20,509 nucleotides of DNA from IMG/VR virus record IMGVR_UViG_3300025324_000038, positions 1 to 20,509 of that record. One strand, 5' to 3'. The notes under the pieces are model-generated. The model was not told the DNA's origin and ran no database searches. It worked only from the letters and a program-made list of their open reading frames with translations. Shown one piece after another: positions 3,488-19,238 of this stretch (positions within the stretch are counted from its first letter, which is position 1; each line of letters opens with the position of its first letter). Both the position numbers and the translations under genes were made by a program. The stretch comes from a virus.

Positions 3488-3538
3488 GCCCATGCGACCA
3501 CTACCCATTGTGCGCGCCCAGGCACGCGCGCACACCAA

Positions 3539-3629
3539 TCGGGCACTATGCCCGAATGATCGGGCACTATGCCCGAACGCTAACCCATTGATATTGCGGT
3601 ACAATCCTGCTATCGGGCACAATGCCCGA
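3539..3629. repeat. Three copies of operator-like palindrome TCGGGCAC(T/A)ATGCCCGA
   Basis: Copies at 3539-3555, 3560-3576 and 3613-3629. Each has perfect 7-bp arms TCGGGCA/TGCCCGA around a 3-bp centre (CTA, CTA, CAA). Starts are 21 and 53 bp apart, close to whole helical turns (2 and 5), so bound dimers would sit on about the same DNA face. This is typical of cooperative repressor operators or iterons. The binding protein is not identified; the HTH-like product of 3952-4341 is one candidate by proximity only. Confidence 0.75.
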
Positions 3630-3639
3630 ATGCGCCCCA

Positions 3640-3653
3640 CCTGTCTAGACAGG
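3640..3653. repeat. Perfect 14-bp palindrome CCTGTCTAGACAGG
   Basis: Fully self-complementary, 11 bp after the third TCGGGCA palindrome and one base before the next palindrome (3655-3674). Operator-like; unrelated in sequence to the other families. Confidence 0.5.
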
Positions 3654-4341: not shown

Positions 4342-4877
4342 ATCCTGGACCAGTACCCAAAAGGCGAACGCGCGCTTTCGACGTTCGTGCAATTCGTAAT
4401 GCCGTTATCGAAAATGCAGTTGTTCCACCTGAACTCCTCCAGAAAGCATTCAAAACTCTAGACAAGCACATTAATGCTAAGAAGACTCTCTACTTTACAC
4501 ACCAAGGTAAAGTTGAAGAAACCGTTGACGTGGAAGATCATGAGACGCAACAACGCGCTATTGATAAAGTGTTTCGTATTGCAGACATATACAGTCATGA
4601 GCGTGATAGTGTTTCGAAGAATGCGGTAAGCGCAATTCGAATGACTATAGATCCCAAGACTGGCGTCATGTCATTAATTATCGGGGGCGAGGTTGACGAA
4701 GACCTCGACAGTGCGGGCAATCCTGAAGTTATTGACATTGACGCCAGTGTTTCTACTCCTGCTTTGGAAGCGCACATTCCAGAGTCCGATCCAGAGCCAG
4801 AAGTGGAAACAGTGAAAGTACATCGAATTAAAGGGCTTCCTGCTGACGTATATCGTACGCTTTACGAAGATCCATAA
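4338..4877 (+). CDS. Putative terminase small subunit (179 aa)
   Basis: The GTG start at 4338 overlaps the previous TGA (GTGA). A basic N-terminus (PKRRTR) precedes a helical region with 'NAKKTLYFTHQGKVEETVDVEDHETQQRAIDKVF' character (residues 47-82). That helix / FT.qGkv / ....He.q..AidKv pattern recurs in small-terminase-like proteins next to podoviral TerL genes. The C-terminal third (120-165) is very acidic (DEDLDSAGNPE, ESDPEPEVE), as in other TerS tails. The position two genes before TerL supports the role: recognition of concatemeric phage DNA and recruitment of TerL to the portal. Assignment rests on context and pattern, not a diagnostic motif. Confidence 0.55.
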   Translation: MNPGPVPKRRTRAFDVRAIRNAVIENAVVPPELLQKAFKTLDKHINAKKTLYFTHQGKVEETVDVEDHETQQRAIDKVFRIADIYSHERDSVSKNAVSAIRMTIDPKTGVMSLIIGGEVDEDLDSAGNPEVIDIDASVSTPALEAHIPESDPEPEVETVKVHRIKGLPADVYRTLYEDP

Positions 4878-5113
4878 TGGACATTCTACACAGCATCATA
4901 GCGCAAGCTGTTGCGAAGCGTGCAATGCTTCTAGAGGAATGGTTACAACTGCACGCTGCTCATGACGTTAAAATGATTATCCACAGTCATGATAATCTCA
5001 CACTGACAGGAAAGTGCGAATGCGGTTCGCAGTGCGAAGTTACGGTAGTCATTTCGACTATCAACAACATTACTGTCCAAAGAGCTATTAATGGGGCGGG
5101 TTTACGCCACTAG
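4877..5113 (+). CDS. Hypothetical 78-residue protein with CxCxxxC motif
   Basis: ATG at 4877 overlaps the previous TAA (TAATG). The N-terminal helix (ILHSIIAQAVAKRAMLLEEWLQLHAAH, 3-29) is followed by beta-type sequence with CECGSQC (47-53) and a Val/Ile-rich strand region (VTVVISTINNITVQ). Possible zinc site, but only three Cys plus nearby His. No family recognised. It is coupled on both sides (TAATG, TAGTG) in the packaging gene set. Confidence 0.7.
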   Translation: MDILHSIIAQAVAKRAMLLEEWLQLHAAHDVKMIIHSHDNLTLTGKCECGSQCEVTVVISTINNITVQRAINGAGLRH

Positions 5114-5373
5114 TGTGGTTCGATTGGTCTGTGACGCTAGGATCTTTGGTGAACGTTCTAGCAATTCTTAGCTTCCTGTTTACTGCACATCGTCATTATA
5201 AATCCTATATTGAGAAGATGGCAGCTATGGAAGAAAAGGTTTCCAGAATGCACAAGACATTAATGGGTGGTAACGGAAACATCGAAGACACATTAGTATG
5301 GCGTATATCGAAAATCGAAAATGAATTAAATAGTTTGGATTGTAGACGAATAGGACGCGATCGCGATGGCTGA
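5113..5373 (+). CDS. Small membrane protein with coiled-coil tail (86 aa)
   Basis: The GTG start at 5113 overlaps the upstream stop (TAGTG). One hydrophobic segment (about residues 7-25, VTLGSLVNVLAILSFLFTA) is followed by a heptad-like charged helix (YIEKMAAMEEKVSRMHKTL, 32-50) and a second helix (RISKIENEL). Single-pass membrane proteins with a coiled-coil tail include XhlA-type hemolysin/holin accessories and some inner-membrane spanins. A lysis-related role is possible, but the position next to TerL is also consistent with a packaging-associated factor. The 3' end overlaps TerL by 8 bp. Confidence 0.7.
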   Translation: MWFDWSVTLGSLVNVLAILSFLFTAHRHYKSYIEKMAAMEEKVSRMHKTLMGGNGNIEDTLVWRISKIENELNSLDCRRIGRDRDG

Positions 5374-7126: not shown

Positions 7127-8799
7127 TGCCTGTTAATGGTCGCGAAGTCATTAGCCGCTTCGATAAGTTAAATAACGAAGCGGGTAACCACAAAGAGCGT
7201 TGGGAGCGTATGGCACCCTATATTGCGCCATCGCGAGTGGGCATTACTACTAAGAACGCACCAGGCGTATCTCAGGTGCGCCATGTATATGATAGTACCA
7301 CGATGATGGCCGCTGAGTTAATGGCTATGTTCATCGCTGGCCATATTATTAATCCTAGCCAACGATGGTTCAATTTTACAACTGAGGATCAGGTTCCTCC
7401 TGAGATCGCTGATCCAATTAACGAATGGAACGAAGAGTGTCGTGACATTACACTAAAGCGTTTGAGCAAATCATTATTCTATGCTGAAGGTCCAGAATCA
7501 ATTATTGACTATGCTGGCTTTGGAACTGGTTTTCTTCTGTGTGAAGAGAATCCACAACCATCCAACCAGACACTACGTGGCTTTCGTGGATTCCATTTCA
7601 CTGCTGAAAAGACTGGACGATTTCTAATAGCCGAAGGCCCAGATGGATTAGTTGATACTGCATTTAACGAATTCGAGTTAAGTGCGCGTGTGATGGTAGA
7701 TCGTTGGGGCCGTGACAACGTATCAGAGGCAGTAAAGAAAGCGATCGACGAAGGTCATCAAGATCGAGCATTTCGAATTGTTCATGGAATCTATCCACGC
7801 CCGAAGGCAGAGCGAAGCTATGGTGCAAAGGGAATGCCTTGGGTGTCTTGTTGGGTAGAATACGAATCTAAGAATGTGTGCCATGAAAGTGGCTACAGAG
7901 TGTTCCCTGCTGCTGTGCCACGCTATCATCGTACACCAGGAGAAGTGTTCGGACGCGGTCGTGGAGATTTAGCATTCCCAGACACGTGGACACTTAACAA
8001 TGCTAAACGTCTTGGATTCGAAGATTGGGCATTAAAGATTCGCCCACCGATTCTACACGCGAGTGATAGCGTGATTGGTACATTGAATCTAACACCTGCG
8101 GGCACTATGCAGGTTAATACGCATGGGCGCCCGGTTAAAGACGTGCTAGCGCCATTTATGACAGGCTCGAGTCCAGAAGTTTCACAGATTAAAGAGGAAG
8201 AGTTGCGGGCGAGCATTCGTCAAATCTTCTACATTGATCACATTATTAAGTTGTTAGAGACGGAAAAGAGTGAAATGACCGCGTACGAATTTGCCAAGAA
8301 GATCGAGTTATTGTTCCGTCTAATGGGTCCCGTGTATGGACGACATGAGTTAGAGTACCTACACAAGATTGTAGATATAATGTGGGATCTCCAATTCTAT
8401 GCGAATGCGTTCCCACCGCCGCCTCCTGAGATATTCCAAACTTCTGGTAACATCTCGATCGAATTCCAGAATCCGATTGCGCGCGCACAGCGTTCGGGTG
8501 ATGCTGAAGCATTAATGCTAGTAATGAATGATAGTGCTCCGCTAATCCAAGTGTTCGGTCCAAGTGTAATGGATCGCCTTGATCCTGAATTAGCATTTGA
8601 AGGTTTGCTTAATACTCGTGGAGTGCCTGCACGTTGGCAGCGTTCTGACGAACAGATTAGTCGTCTACGCGCAGCGCGTGCAGAGCAGAATGCTAAGGAA
8701 GTACAATTAGCAGATATGGAGCAAATGGCTAGTGCAGCGGGCGCTGCCGCTCCAATGATGAAGGTGCTCCAATCCCAGAATGGGGTTAAGAGTGCTTAA
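7126..8799 (+). CDS. Head-to-tail connector / portal protein (T7 gp8 type), 557 aa
   Basis: Forms the dodecameric ring at the capsid vertex through which DNA enters and to which the short tail attaches. The N-terminus (RFDKLNNEAGNHKERWERMAPYIAPS) and the segment VYDSTTMMAAELMAMFIAGHIINPSQRWF (about 54-82) match the family 'Bacteriophage head to tail connecting protein'. The later region with PRYHRTPGEVFGRGRGDLAFPDTWTLN (about 265-291) and the helical EMTAYEFAKKIELLFRLMGPVYGRHELEYL also fit. The C-terminal 80 residues are helical and Ala/Gln-rich, like the portal barrel. Length is normal (about 500-560). It overlaps the Bbp19-like gene by 20 bp. Confidence 0.95.
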   Translation: MPVNGREVISRFDKLNNEAGNHKERWERMAPYIAPSRVGITTKNAPGVSQVRHVYDSTTMMAAELMAMFIAGHIINPSQRWFNFTTEDQVPPEIADPINEWNEECRDITLKRLSKSLFYAEGPESIIDYAGFGTGFLLCEENPQPSNQTLRGFRGFHFTAEKTGRFLIAEGPDGLVDTAFNEFELSARVMVDRWGRDNVSEAVKKAIDEGHQDRAFRIVHGIYPRPKAERSYGAKGMPWVSCWVEYESKNVCHESGYRVFPAAVPRYHRTPGEVFGRGRGDLAFPDTWTLNNAKRLGFEDWALKIRPPILHASDSVIGTLNLTPAGTMQVNTHGRPVKDVLAPFMTGSSPEVSQIKEEELRASIRQIFYIDHIIKLLETEKSEMTAYEFAKKIELLFRLMGPVYGRHELEYLHKIVDIMWDLQFYANAFPPPPPEIFQTSGNISIEFQNPIARAQRSGDAEALMLVMNDSAPLIQVFGPSVMDRLDPELAFEGLLNTRGVPARWQRSDEQISRLRAARAEQNAKEVQLADMEQMASAAGAAAPMMKVLQSQNGVKSA

Positions 8800-13116: not shown

Positions 13117-15312
13117 ATGCTAGTATTCAATAAACCAATTCAGGAAGAAACAGACAGTTACAATAGACGTATTTCTCTCCCTGTAGTTAGTGGAATTATT
13201 GATGTTCAATGGACGCCAGGTGGCACAAGCACTCCAATGCGTCTTATGGTTAATGGGACGCCCGCGTCAAATTTCGTTACTGGTCCTTATCTAGTTAAAC
13301 TAGACACACGATTGCATCCAAATGGTTCTGCATTGCTGTGGGCCGAGACCGCATCTGGTGGTATTCAACTAGACGCCTCTTCGCAGGCGGTTCAAATTGA
13401 TAATACTACTGATCCATTAGATGGCCCGCAGCGCGTCTATTTAAGTATATCACGTTATGAACGTGGACAGATGGGCATCAACAGTGGCGGTGGTTCAGTT
13501 CCCTATCCTGCATTACCCCCGAGTGTGTATGTTAAGTCATCGCCTACTAAAAAGTGGATAGCTAAACCGCGTACGACGCTACCAGCATTCGCAAGTGATC
13601 TATTAGCTATCAATATTGGGCAGTGTGTCCAAGGATTCGTTCCTGAGTTCTGTTCAATGCCTAATGGCGGTATTGGCATTAACAGATGGGAGCAATACTA
13701 TCACACGTATCAGCGTGAGGGTGCGCGTGGACCACTCCGTGGTGGTGAGCGCCCATTGGCATTCCCTGGTTACGTGGGCGCTGTCCGAATGTCTTCTTGG
13801 TCTTACGGTTATTACGGAATCAGTGTGAACGGCAATGCATGGTGGATGAGCGAATCTGGGCGTTTAATCAAGATCGCTGGTACATGGCTCAAAGATGATG
13901 TGTTAACTCCGTACCACGGAGCGTACGACACTGCGCCGATTTGGTATAAGAGTCATTACGAAACATTAGGAAATTTCGTTAATCCTGGTCCGCGTAACTT
14001 TAATCAACCGTGGGATATCGTATTAACACCTACGCCTGGATTGCCAACGCACGCGGACATGTGGATTACCGACACCAATAACCATCGCATCGCATTCGTA
14101 TGTCATGTGCCAGCGCATAGCGGTGGACAATCAACAGTAGCGCATGTAGCTGGTGCTACAGATGGAACGCCGACACCAGAATGTAATGGTCCTTGGGGAG
14201 CAGATCGTGACAAGTTTGGAAATATTTGGTGGGTTAATTTCTTTGATGGTTCTATTGTTCGTGGTACTCCTAGCACTACTCCATTTGATCCGATGACCGA
14301 ATGGCCTACATTTAGTGAAGTTAAGGTTATGTGGAAATCGCGTAGGCCTGCGACTTGGGCAGAGATGCGACGTGCAGATCAGTTCTCACTTCCAGGCTTT
14401 GGTGGTAAGCCTAGTGAGATCCGCGCACGTTTAGCGGCTACTGGACCATTAACTGGTCCGGATGGTATTCTTGCATTTCCACAAGCTGCACGCTTCCGTG
14501 CTGATGGCACTACGCTTCAAATTGCTGAGCCATATACGACTCGCGTGGTAATCTTTGATACATTACATCCTGAGGATGGCATAAGTGCGTTCGTGACAGT
14601 GCCGGATGCTGAAACTCCTCGTGACGTGGCAATGGCTATCGACGTGGAAGGTACATTCGGCCCAAAGGGCGATACCTTTGTAACATTCTGGACCAATGGA
14701 TTTGATCGACGTTATAGTGCCACAGGCGCGCCACGCGCGTGGTCCGGTGGTGCTTCGCAATCATTCCTTACAGATGATGGTGGTGGAAAAGCAGCTTACG
14801 TAGATTACCCATCTGCGTTGGATGTGTGTCGTGGAGAAATGGTGATTTACGGAACTGGTAAGAATCATGACGCATTTCGTATCATAACGCGTACATCCGA
14901 CTTTGCGCCTCCATCATGGACAATAGCTTCGCGCGGTTTGACTATCTACAATACAATGCGGATGCGCCCGGACGCTGATCGGCTTTCTGGACCACTTGTT
15001 ATGTACTATGGTGTTAATGGAATTAACTTGCTTGGACTACCTCAGTTACGAGATATTGCGGCTTGGCCGCGTGCAGAACAAGAGGCGTGGGCACGTGGAT
15101 ATCTCACTGTGTCGGATGCACAGCTTAATGATCTACTAACTTATGTGGCACGAATTGGTTACTTACATGAGCCAGTTATTGTGGAACCTCCGCCTCCACC
15201 GCCACCTCCCCCTCCGCCACCACCACCGCCTGATCCAGAACCGGAGCCAGAACCGACAGTAGTATTAAGAATTAAAGTGGGAACTACGTATCGTGTAGAG
15301 GAGATCCCATGA
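13117..15312 (+). CDS. Large virion protein: Ig-like domain + NHL-type beta-propeller + polyproline/Pro-Glu linker (731 aa)
   Basis: ATG at 13117 lies 1 bp after the previous stop. Residues about 20-98 look like a bacterial Ig-like domain (SGIIDVQWTPGG...PMRLMVNGTPAS...TGPYLVKLDTRLHPNGSALLWAETAS). A long middle section has NHL-like blades: PWDIVLTPTPG...DMWITDTNNHRIAFVC (298-329), GPWGADRDKFGNIWWVNFFDGSIVR (358-382), FPQAARFRADGTTLQIAEPYTTRVVIFD (454-481) and PRDVAMAIDVEG...DTFVTFW (501-525). A helical region follows, then 15 consecutive prolines (691-705), DPEPEPEP (706-713) and a short beta tail to 731. Likely a tail or head appendage, perhaps receptor-binding or carbohydrate-binding. It ends with ATGA onto the coiled-coil gene. 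Confidence 0.8.
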   Translation: MLVFNKPIQEETDSYNRRISLPVVSGIIDVQWTPGGTSTPMRLMVNGTPASNFVTGPYLVKLDTRLHPNGSALLWAETASGGIQLDASSQAVQIDNTTDPLDGPQRVYLSISRYERGQMGINSGGGSVPYPALPPSVYVKSSPTKKWIAKPRTTLPAFASDLLAINIGQCVQGFVPEFCSMPNGGIGINRWEQYYHTYQREGARGPLRGGERPLAFPGYVGAVRMSSWSYGYYGISVNGNAWWMSESGRLIKIAGTWLKDDVLTPYHGAYDTAPIWYKSHYETLGNFVNPGPRNFNQPWDIVLTPTPGLPTHADMWITDTNNHRIAFVCHVPAHSGGQSTVAHVAGATDGTPTPECNGPWGADRDKFGNIWWVNFFDGSIVRGTPSTTPFDPMTEWPTFSEVKVMWKSRRPATWAEMRRADQFSLPGFGGKPSEIRARLAATGPLTGPDGILAFPQAARFRADGTTLQIAEPYTTRVVIFDTLHPEDGISAFVTVPDAETPRDVAMAIDVEGTFGPKGDTFVTFWTNGFDRRYSATGAPRAWSGGASQSFLTDDGGGKAAYVDYPSALDVCRGEMVIYGTGKNHDAFRIITRTSDFAPPSWTIASRGLTIYNTMRMRPDADRLSGPLVMYYGVNGINLLGLPQLRDIAAWPRAEQEAWARGYLTVSDAQLNDLLTYVARIGYLHEPVIVEPPPPPPPPPPPPPPPDPEPEPEPTVVLRIKVGTTYRVEEIP

Positions 15313-16276: not shown

Positions 16277-17467
16277 ATGTCGCGCCTATTCACGTGTGGA
16301 TTGGAAGAACAGGCCGTTGCGGCGTGGGCTGGAAGCGCCATGTGGTCTGGCTCCTCCGATGCTGCTGGCTTTTCTGTCGTAAACTCACCTGTCCGTTCTG
16401 GCATTCGCGCTATAGAAATTACTACACATTCTGCCAATGTGCGCGGTCCTTGGAAATCCTTATCTGCTGCAGTTAACACTGGTACATTCTTTACACGATT
16501 TGCGTTTCGTAAATCTACAAACCCAAACGCTCCAAATCGTATTTTTATTATGACAAATAATGGATTTACGACAGGATTAGTACGTGTTGATTTAGATAGT
16601 GCTGGCCAAATTGTAGTGACTCCCTTAGCTGGAGGTGGTACAATATCCAGTAGTGCATTGTCAAACAACACTTACTATGTTATTGAACTCAAAGTTTTAT
16701 TAAGTGCAACAGTAGGCACAGTAGAATTACGTATTGATGGGGTTAGTATTGGGTCGTTATCTTCTATAAACACATTAAATGGAACAACTCTTCAAGAATT
16801 TCGCTTTAGTGTGACCACGACCAGCGGAGTTTTTCCAACATATAACTACGATGATATTGCCATTAACGACGCTTCGGGATCTTTTCAGAATGATTGGCCT
16901 GGGCTCGGTCATATTATTATGTCTAAGCCTGGACTCGATGGCTCTATTACCTGGACGCCTAATGTTGGCTCCGATAATTTTGCTAATGTTGATGACCTTC
17001 CAGCAACTGCTGCTGATGATGATACTACATATAATAGCAGTGCCACTGCGAATGACGAGGATCGTTATGCGATAACGCCAATGCCGGCAGAAATTGGTAC
17101 TGATGACATTATTGTGTTAGTCCACGTGTGGACACGTATTCGTGGTGAAGGAACGACGGCAACCCGCCAGTGTCGTTCATTGCTTTGGGACGAATCATTA
17201 AGCCAAACTGTTGGCCCCACGACTAATCAGAATGATGGTACTGCGTATACTAACTGTGCTGTTACTGCTGGTGGGAGCCAAGCGCTCCTTTATGATGCTG
17301 CCGGTAAGACGAAGGCTAACCTAGATAACTTCTCGATTGGCGCCGAGCCGGTGACAAGCCATCCAACGCGATTAACAGCGATATGGGCCAATATCGAATG
17401 GATTGAAAAGCCTCCAGCTAGTTTAGTTTGGGCACCATCACCAATGCAAGCACTACTAGTACGATAG
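16277..17467 (+). CDS. Virion protein with ConA/LamG-like jelly-roll domain (396 aa)
   Basis: ATG at 16277, 2 bp after the previous stop. Residues about 1-205 have the strand pattern and phrases of concanavalin-like lectin/LamG domains in phages: ...FFTRFAFRKST... (70-80), GLVRVDLDSAGQIVV (99-113), TYYVIELKVLLS..GTVELRIDG (132-154), and YNYDDIAINDASGS (189-202; 'yyDDiaI.d..G' is typical). A second beta domain follows (about 210-380), with ITWTPNVGSDNFANVDD ... IPLVHVWTR-type strands. Function is likely virion surface or tail, with glycan binding possible. No enzymatic motif seen. Confidence 0.7.
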   Translation: MSRLFTCGLEEQAVAAWAGSAMWSGSSDAAGFSVVNSPVRSGIRAIEITTHSANVRGPWKSLSAAVNTGTFFTRFAFRKSTNPNAPNRIFIMTNNGFTTGLVRVDLDSAGQIVVTPLAGGGTISSSALSNNTYYVIELKVLLSATVGTVELRIDGVSIGSLSSINTLNGTTLQEFRFSVTTTSGVFPTYNYDDIAINDASGSFQNDWPGLGHIIMSKPGLDGSITWTPNVGSDNFANVDDLPATAADDDTTYNSSATANDEDRYAITPMPAEIGTDDIIVLVHVWTRIRGEGTTATRQCRSLLWDESLSQTVGPTTNQNDGTAYTNCAVTAGGSQALLYDAAGKTKANLDNFSIGAEPVTSHPTRLTAIWANIEWIEKPPASLVWAPSPMQALLVR

Positions 17468-17477
17468 GAGAATATAA

Positions 17478-17957
17478 ATGGGCCGTATGTACACTGTACC
17501 AATTCCGTTCACAGCACAAACGACACAAATTGATATTTTTGAATTAACGGCTGCTGCAGAGAAACCTTGTCGTATTCATGAAATTTACGTAGGACAGACT
17601 TCAGATGCAAAGGATGCAGAAGAACAGATGTTATCTTTTAAGTTAAAGCGTGCATTTGGATCTGTGACTTCTGGAAGCGGTGGAACTGCACCAACGCCTC
17701 AGAAAGAAGATCCAGATGATGCAGCCGCGGGCGCAACCATAGAAGTTAACAATACTACGAAGCTGGCAGTTGGCACTGGTACTATTGAAGATGAGCGTCT
17801 TTATAGCTGGAATATTCGTGTACCATTCCATATGATCTTCACACCCGAAACACGTCCTCGTGTTAAAGGTGGTGAGAAGAAAGTTCTCGAGTTGACTACT
17901 ACGCCTACAGGTAGCGTAACGATTGGTGGTTATATAGAGTTCTCAGAAGGCGACTAA
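17478..17957 (+). CDS. Conserved phage virion protein (159 aa)
   Basis: ATG at 17478 follows AGGAG. N-terminal MGRMYTVPIPFTAQTTQIDIFELTAA.EKPCRIHEIYVGQTSDAKDAEEQML.F.LKRA matches a phage protein often encoded just before tail-repeat proteins. The middle is disordered (GSGGTAPTPQKEDPDDAA), then strands around residues 100-150 ending GGYIEFSEGD. Mainly beta; function unknown. Its 3' end borders the repeat gene whose frame has no ordinary start (see 17962-18627), raising the option that the two are joined by +1 frameshifting. Confidence 0.75.
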   Translation: MGRMYTVPIPFTAQTTQIDIFELTAAAEKPCRIHEIYVGQTSDAKDAEEQMLSFKLKRAFGSVTSGSGGTAPTPQKEDPDDAAAGATIEVNNTTKLAVGTGTIEDERLYSWNIRVPFHMIFTPETRPRVKGGEKKVLELTTTPTGSVTIGGYIEFSEGD

Positions 17958-17961
17958 AGCT

Positions 17962-18627
17962 CTGCCTATTGGCGTATTTCGTCCAGCGTTCTTTCCAAGG
18001 TTACCCGTACTTTGGATTCCTACTGCGGGAGCGGCGGGTGGTCCTTGGACAATCGCTGTTGGACAAGCACTTGAGACTGATCTTGCTCAAGCGTTCGCGC
18101 ACACCAAAACCCTTGCAATTGGCCTTGTAACTGAGAGCGATATAGCGCAACCAATTAGTGTTCTTAAAACCTACGCAATAGGCCAAGCACTCGAAACGGA
18201 TCTTGCACAGAGCATTGCTTGGTTTAAGGTTAAGGAAATTGGATTAGCCACTGAAATTGACTTAGCCCAGACAATTACACCCGTTTCGGCGCAAACTATT
18301 GCTGTTGGTCTAGTAACCGAGGCTGATCTCGCACAGCCAATAGTGTGGGCGCCCAAGATTCGCATTCTTGGAATTGCAACTGAGACGGATATTGCACAGA
18401 GTATGACACCAGTATTAGGTAGTGGGCCAACTTTTGAATCATTTAATGGAATAGTTCCAATTCGTTACGTAGTTGGAGTTATTCCAAATGTAGTACCTGT
18501 CGAAACTGTGACAATTAATGCTATAGGTGTGGTCCCGTGTAGAGTAGAGGTGGGACCAGCGAATGTAGTACCGGTGCGCGAGACTAACACAGAAGTTCCA
18601 AGAGTTAAAATCATCCTATCAGTTTGA
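17962..18627 (+). CDS. Tandem 20-residue repeat protein; non-ATG start or frameshift extension (about 221 aa)
   Basis: From 17938 to 18627 one frame is open (stops TAG 17935-17937 and TGA 18625-18627), but the first ATG/GTG/TTG in it is a GTG at 18343, after most of the repeats. The repeat core G(Q/L/I)(A/V)(L/T)E(T/S/I/A)D(L/I)AQ occurs at codons beginning 18061, 18121, 18181, 18241, 18307 and 18370: six units of 20, 20, 20, 22 and 21 residues. The N-terminal part (LPIGVFRPAFFPRLPVLWIP) looks like a genuine start region just after the previous stop. A CTG at 17962 (SD-like AGAAGG 12 nt upstream) is my start; +1 frameshifting from 17478-17957 or a sequence indel are alternatives. Repeats of this IGxAxETDxAQ type are known from phage tail-region proteins. 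The C-terminal 70 residues are Val/Pro-rich. Confidence 0.7.
   Translation: MPIGVFRPAFFPRLPVLWIPTAGAAGGPWTIAVGQALETDLAQAFAHTKTLAIGLVTESDIAQPISVLKTYAIGQALETDLAQSIAWFKVKEIGLATEIDLAQTITPVSAQTIAVGLVTEADLAQPIVWAPKIRILGIATETDIAQSMTPVLGSGPTFESFNGIVPIRYVVGVIPNVVPVETVTINAIGVVPCRVEVGPANVVPVRETNTEVPRVKIILSV
18061..18405 (+). repeat. Six tandem ~60-bp coding repeats
   Basis: Unit starts 18061, 18121, 18181, 18241, 18307 and 18370. Conserved Gly, Glu, Asp and Ala-Gln at fixed positions in each unit; DNA sequences have diverged more than the protein, so the repeat is maintained at protein level. Spacing 60, 60, 60, 66, 63 bp. Confidence 0.75.
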
Positions 18628-18632
18628 GGTGA

Positions 18633-19238
18633 ATGATGAGTGCAGAGACTGATCTTCTAAATGACGCGTTGGGACAGATCGGGGCCGCGCGCATCAGTGG
18701 CATTGACGAGAATAGCGTGAACGCGCACTGGTGCAAAACGTTCTATCCCATGTTGCGACGCAACTCACTTCGTTTACATTTTTGGAACTTTGCCGAGGAA
18801 CGTGTCGAATTAGGTCAAGATGCGATTCCTCCGGTATTTGGGTGGACGTATGCCTATGGTCTACCAGGAGATTACCTTCGTCTGCGGGAGTTCAATGGAA
18901 CCAGTATAATTTACTATTCTGATCCTAACAATCTAATTAGATACGAGGAAGCGTACAAAATTGAAGGATCGCGATTACTAACTAATTCTGGGCGTGCGCT
19001 CATTGTATACACTAAGGATGTTACCAATCCCGCTGAATGGGATGCACTATTCTACGAATATATCAGCACTATGTTAGCCAGTAAGCTGGCTATGGCTATC
19101 GGAAAAGATGGTTCTAAATCTGCATTTCTTGCACAGCAAGCGCTACAAGTCAAATTACCATTCTCAATGGCGGTAGACGGACAAGAGTCGCCTACGACGC
19201 GTATGCGCAGCGATGAGTTAATTAAAGGTCGCTGGTAA
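18633..19238 (+). CDS. Tail tubular protein A (T7 gp11 type), 201 aa
   Basis: Forms the upper tail ring that binds the portal in short-tailed phages. SD-like GAGGTGA precedes ATGATG; the first ATG (18633) is used. Conserved family features: SAETDLLNDALGQIGAARISGIDENS (3-28), CKTFYPMLRRNSLRLHFWNFAEERVEL (34-60), FGWTYAYGLPGDYLRLREFNG (69-89), TNPAEWDALFYEYISTMLASKLAMAI (132-157). Length matches the family (about 190-210). TAATG couples it to the tail tubular B gene. Confidence 0.94.
   Translation: MMSAETDLLNDALGQIGAARISGIDENSVNAHWCKTFYPMLRRNSLRLHFWNFAEERVELGQDAIPPVFGWTYAYGLPGDYLRLREFNGTSIIYYSDPNNLIRYEEAYKIEGSRLLTNSGRALIVYTKDVTNPAEWDALFYEYISTMLASKLAMAIGKDGSKSAFLAQQALQVKLPFSMAVDGQESPTTRMRSDELIKGRW

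Follow-up and report, generated by a model that had tools for sequence, protein, structure and literature searches.

CTG start codons are rare but established. A figure cited in PMC11983097 puts them at 20 genes among nearly 85,000 in model bacteria, and the same source, citing Hecht et al., gives the strength of CTG in a reporter as about 10-fold below that of TTG. In the FIB rep gene of F-like plasmids, which is commonly misannotated as beginning at a GTG 14 codons downstream, the CTG start has been demonstrated experimentally: its replacement by CTC abolishes function, and its use keeps expression of the replication protein low (PMC11983097). By analogy, the phage gene described here appears to be a similar case, with a proposed CTG start and a GTG further downstream, although the FIB rep protein itself is unrelated.

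For the encoded protein, the closest described systems are found in phages. Gene 13 of the Streptomyces phages Hiyaa and Spocter (phrog_14065) encodes a protein of ~1,100 residues whose ~20-residue repeats match the same profile as those of our locus; it is a minor tail protein in Hiyaa and sits just before the head-to-tail adaptor in Spocter. The repeats studied here align with positions 678-842 of this 1152-position profile (E 4.6e-8), and the N-terminal part of gene 13 is homologous to another gene of the same DNA, starting at 16277. Both parts lie in one protein in Hiyaa and Spocter, whereas here they are separate genes with a third gene, of a family designated MGRMYT, between them. The local gene order is that of Podoviridae sp. 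ctVRi840 (MW202742.1), in which an MGRMYT gene precedes, and a tail tubular protein A-like gene follows, a second gene with the same N-terminus (MSTGVFRH) and a repeat body; the ctVRi840 gene differs in its GTG start and in having its own 22-residue repeat of a different sequence. A further point of comparison is L002 (IMG/VR contig 3300034021_000678), in which an MGRMYT relative of 48% identity is followed by an ATG-started gene reading MSNGVFRPRFF. The DNA of its motif, GGNGTATTTCGTCC, is identical to ours except for the wobble base, but the product, unlike that of our locus, has only 51 residues and no repeats.

The window, by which we mean the whole stretch of DNA that was analysed (20,509 nucleotides), is a 20.5-kb virus record from a podovirus-like phage, with genes for a terminase, a head-tail adaptor (portal) and a major head protein. 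The features of the locus are collected in Table 1; beyond them, past the tail tubular protein A-like gene, lies a further long open gene. Elsewhere in the window, positions 13117-15312 encode a protein of 731 residues, in which ~15 consecutive prolines and PEPEPEP occur towards the end and for which PHROGs gave no match and the sole similarity, to NHL, was sub-threshold.

Table 1. Features of the repeat-protein locus and its neighbours in the window
Feature	Position	Strand	Evidence
Gene matching the N-terminal third of phrog_14065, a family that also holds the repeats	16277..17467	+	E 7.4e-14, profile positions 1-381
Upstream partner gene, MGRMYT family, 159 residues, predicted beta-sandwich	17478..17957	+	Relatives; AlphaFold pLDDT 90.6
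AGAAGG, moderate ribosome-binding sequence in the end of the upstream gene	17945..17950	+	Sequence; predicted anti-SD pairing
Repeat-protein gene, 221 residues, proposed start CTG 17962, stop TGA 18625-18627	17962..18627	+	Open frame; start column aligned with nine relatives
Proposed CTG start codon, 4 bases past the upstream stop	17962..17964	+	Column of the L002 ATG and ctVRi840 GTG
Conserved family N-terminal motif, GVFRPAF	17971..17991	+	Top score, 15.8 bits against 10.5 for the next
Six ~20-residue repeats, core GxxxExDxAQ	18055..18420	+	Also in L004, L017, L019, L020, L021 and others
C-terminal tail without repeat	18421..18624	+	Translation
Tail tubular protein A-like gene, directly downstream	18633..19238	+	phrog_394, E 1.3e-43; tail tubular A in Pelagibacter phages

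An earlier note on this DNA had drawn attention to a frame of about 230 codons holding six repeats of ~20 residues, in which the first ordinary start, GTG 18343, would discard five of the six. This description is accurate. The frame runs along the + strand for 229 codons, from 17938, just after a TAG at 17935-17937, to its stop; copies of the unit xxGxxxExDxAQ begin at 18055, 18115, 18175, 18235, 18301 and 18364; and GTG 18343 is the earliest ATG, GTG or TTG, so that a start there would keep only the last copy. Self-identity at a lag of 20 residues amounts to 44 matches, against a maximum of 34 over all lags in 5,000 shuffles. In a scan of the window, this was the sole + strand frame of at least 120 codons with at least 60 codons ahead of its first ATG, GTG or TTG; the - strand held one such frame (8397-8795), within the portal gene.

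Among copies 1-5, single-base codon differences are synonymous in 53 cases and non-synonymous in 19, where random expectation would be ~25% synonymous, and differences fall at third codon positions (102) more than at first (53) or second (49). This synonymous excess shows that the codons ahead of GTG 18343 are translated or were so until recently, as the earlier note had proposed. It also bears on the idea that the gene is decaying, having lost its start codon and yielding the short product from GTG 18343 or none at all. A gene of that kind would lack a common start and could retain the GTG 18343 piece, both of which are seen here. Nevertheless, synonymous changes prevail between the repeats, the 221 codons run without a stop or frameshift, the N-terminal motif discussed below is intact and GTG 18343 is almost devoid of a ribosome-binding sequence; we consider decay very unlikely.

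The question of where translation begins can be addressed through relatives of the upstream gene. Apart from the window, there are 13 MGRMYT relatives in viral contigs (14 loci), near-duplicates being counted singly or nearly so, plus the annotated podovirus ctVRi840 with three near copies; a further search added no loci to those already found. In nine of these relatives (L002, L005, L006, L007, L009, L010, L011, L012 and L025, the last being ctVRi840), a second gene begins 0-20 bases past the MGRMYT stop, with ATG in six and GTG in three. Roughly eight of the nine can be taken as independent cases, because L009 and L010 resemble each other closely. The second genes share the N-terminal sequence [VI][FY]R[RP] a few residues in, usually followed by a later R-W, the most divergent N-terminus being that of L011 (MPFFLRSTW). 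From them we defined a group without a prior name, the "MGRMYT-linked anchor-plus-repeat genes".

The window pair shows the same pattern, since its repeat gene adjoins the MGRMYT gene, with a gap from TAA to CTG (4 bases) within the range of the relatives, and has [VI][FY]R only a few residues after the proposed start. Here the repeat frame reads CTG CCT ATT GGC GTA TTT CGT CCA, or LPIGVFRP, continuing as LPIGVFRPAFF. This peptide aligns without gaps, up to the motif, with MSNGVFRPRFF of L002 (ATG) and MSTGVFRHRYH of ctVRi840 (GTG), which places CTG 17962 in the start column. A seven-residue motif profile, built from the nine relatives with the window left out, ranked the site at 17971 first when all six frames were scored (29,495 peptides of seven residues). 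The earlier note had listed a CTG at 17962-17964 as one option and had suggested comparing the junction in related phages; that comparison supports the option, with the codon at 17962 falling in the ATG/GTG start column of homologous genes from nine relatives. Translation of a separate gene from CTG 17962 is, on this comparative evidence, a likely reading and the best supported one. In general terms, a gene that seems to be startless or frameshifted may be resolved by comparing start columns in relatives. Standard gene finders would miss the first 60% of the present gene, because its start would be a rare CTG; it would add a credible CTG start for a phage structural gene, a class invisible to ordinary gene finders.

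The AGAAGG in the end of the upstream gene ends 11 bases before the CTG, and the predicted anti-SD pairing in the 22 bases before the CTG is -4.8 kcal/mol, compared with -2.0 kcal/mol for GTG 18343 and a median of -2.9 kcal/mol for random sites, among which the CTG site falls between the 10th and 25th percentile. This Shine-Dalgarno match is only moderate and, like the rarity and weakness of CTG starts and the lack of a CTG in the relatives examined, weighs against the CTG. RNA folding near the start revealed no unusual structure (z +1.2). We propose that ribosomes finishing the upstream gene at TAA 17955-17957 most likely help initiation at the CTG, most likely aided by the AGAAGG just ahead of it, and that the product would begin (f)MPIGVFRPAFFPR. 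Another rare start codon, ATT 17968, would yield M-G-V-F-R-P, with a start-to-motif distance within the range of the relatives, and L007 does have a single residue between M and V-Y-R. However, the two most similar N-termini, those of L002 and ctVRi840, put the start exactly at the CTG, and ATT 17968 lies 17 bases from AAGG; a start at this codon seems highly improbable.

The main rival to a CTG start is an error in the base itself, that is, a correct start site at 17962 whose true first letter is A, G or T, read as C through a contig substitution error or as a minority variant. The nine relatives all have ATG or GTG in this column and none has CTG, and the window is a single virus contig. A search for another contig with the exact junction, allowing any base at 17962, found none, and the closest relatives by portal (53-62% identity; L043-L048, of which parts were examined and some contigs end early) contained no MGRMYT or repeat-protein match and so offered no junction. 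On the other hand, single substitutions are uncommon in consensus contigs, and the window shows no other sign of poor quality, the neighbouring genes being intact. We therefore regard a substitution as unlikely, though deserving of some weight. The one-base error raised by the earlier note thus survives in this form; an insertion or deletion is unneeded, because the repeat frame already holds the conserved N-terminal peptide in full.

The outcome that the earlier note had found most attractive was a +1 frameshift where the gene starting at 17478 ends, which would fuse the two products into an extended virion protein. The two frames do stand in the +1 relation that it described, and the repeat frame is open, with no common start codon, over the overlap (17938-17957). 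The relatives speak against such a fusion. Their second genes are separate, each with its own ATG or GTG; the relative frame of the two genes is 0 in six and +2 in three but +1 in none, so there is no conservation of a frameshift. Moreover, direct reading of the overlap codons (GAG TTC TCA GAA GGC GAC TAA) offers no cognate +1 P-site re-pairing, and the conserved N-terminal motif appears only past the CTG, the eight codons between 17938 and the CTG having no counterpart in the relatives. We give a frameshift almost no credence. Most likely, we are dealing with a phage surface-repeat gene of an ordinary type, and the puzzle has a plain answer without frameshifting.

In the separate gene thus proposed at 17962-18627, translated from the CTG, the short conserved N-terminal segment IGVFRPAFFPRLPVLWIP may serve as the point of attachment to the virion, and it would be followed by the six repeats, probably rich in beta structure, and the C-terminal tail. 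To judge from synteny and family names, the product is probably a repeat protein of the virion surface, of the minor-tail or fibre-like type, and would probably be produced together with the beta-sandwich protein of the MGRMYT gene; the surface assignment draws on the phrog_14065 matches, on gene 13 of Hiyaa and Spocter and on the tail-fibre match of L010 described below. For the repeat protein, a direct search of annotated phages gave no match, the repeat alignment, run against bacterial and archaeal genomes, gave no confirmed relative, Pfam gave nothing useful and the AlphaFold model was unreliable (pLDDT 37.6). The MGRMYT model matched many unnamed phage proteins (best E 2.7e-9); in the PDB, its matches (Z up to 8.5) reflect nothing beyond a common beta-sandwich arrangement, and none had a Foldseek E < 0.001. 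As these matches are either unnamed or generic, we assign no function to the MGRMYT protein.

Across the relatives, the N-terminus of the second gene is kept while the repeat body varies. The best repeat lag is 20 in the window, L006, L009 and L010 (in L009, 40 is equal), 21 to 22 in L005, L011 and ctVRi840, and 14 in L007 and L012, L002 having no repeat. The repeat sequences differ as well, examples being ETDxAQ (window), GSYxxxGTA (L011 and ctVRi840) and LEYLRG (L007). In L010, what follows the anchor and repeats matches a tail fibre family (phrog_33450, E 4.8e-10). Repeats of the ETDxA type also occur as standalone genes with ordinary ATG or GTG starts (L004, L017, L019 and L023), at the ends of longer proteins (L020 and L022) and in a protein cut by the contig end (L021). 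It is conceivable, and we put this forward tentatively as somewhat less than probable, that the MGRMYT gene makes up, with the gene after it, a two-gene virion module without a prior name, in which a kept anchor carries a fast-changing stalk, the repeat body being replaced wholesale by unrelated repeats of 14, 20 or 22 residues, sometimes with a tail-fibre end. The window copy would add to this module the case of a structural gene that relies on a CTG start. The exchange of repeat bodies on a kept anchor could merit a proper survey.

Several smaller observations were made on the relatives. The second genes of L009 (3474-5030) and L010 (3474-5123) encode ~520-550 residues, with the same anchor, few repeats and a long C-terminal part. 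In L002, the gene at 3492-3647 consists of the anchor only and is followed by an unrelated alanine/glutamate-rich repeat gene. The protein of L023 (2944-3846), past its ETDxA repeats, ends in a different repeat, YEHxSLA. In L005, L006, L007, L011, L012 and L025, both genes share a frame, with the stop codon and 0-15 bases between them, that is, in six of nine, where a third would be expected by chance. Finally, in L025 (MW202742.1) the gene lies at 4481-5215 and its annotated CDS, UOF81327.1, begins inside it, at ATG 4625. Upstream of that codon the frame stays open as far as GTG 4481, from which the conserved MSTGVFRH is read, and the public start of UOF81327.1 is therefore ~48 codons too late; the comparison thus exposes a wrong start in the public ctVRi840 record.
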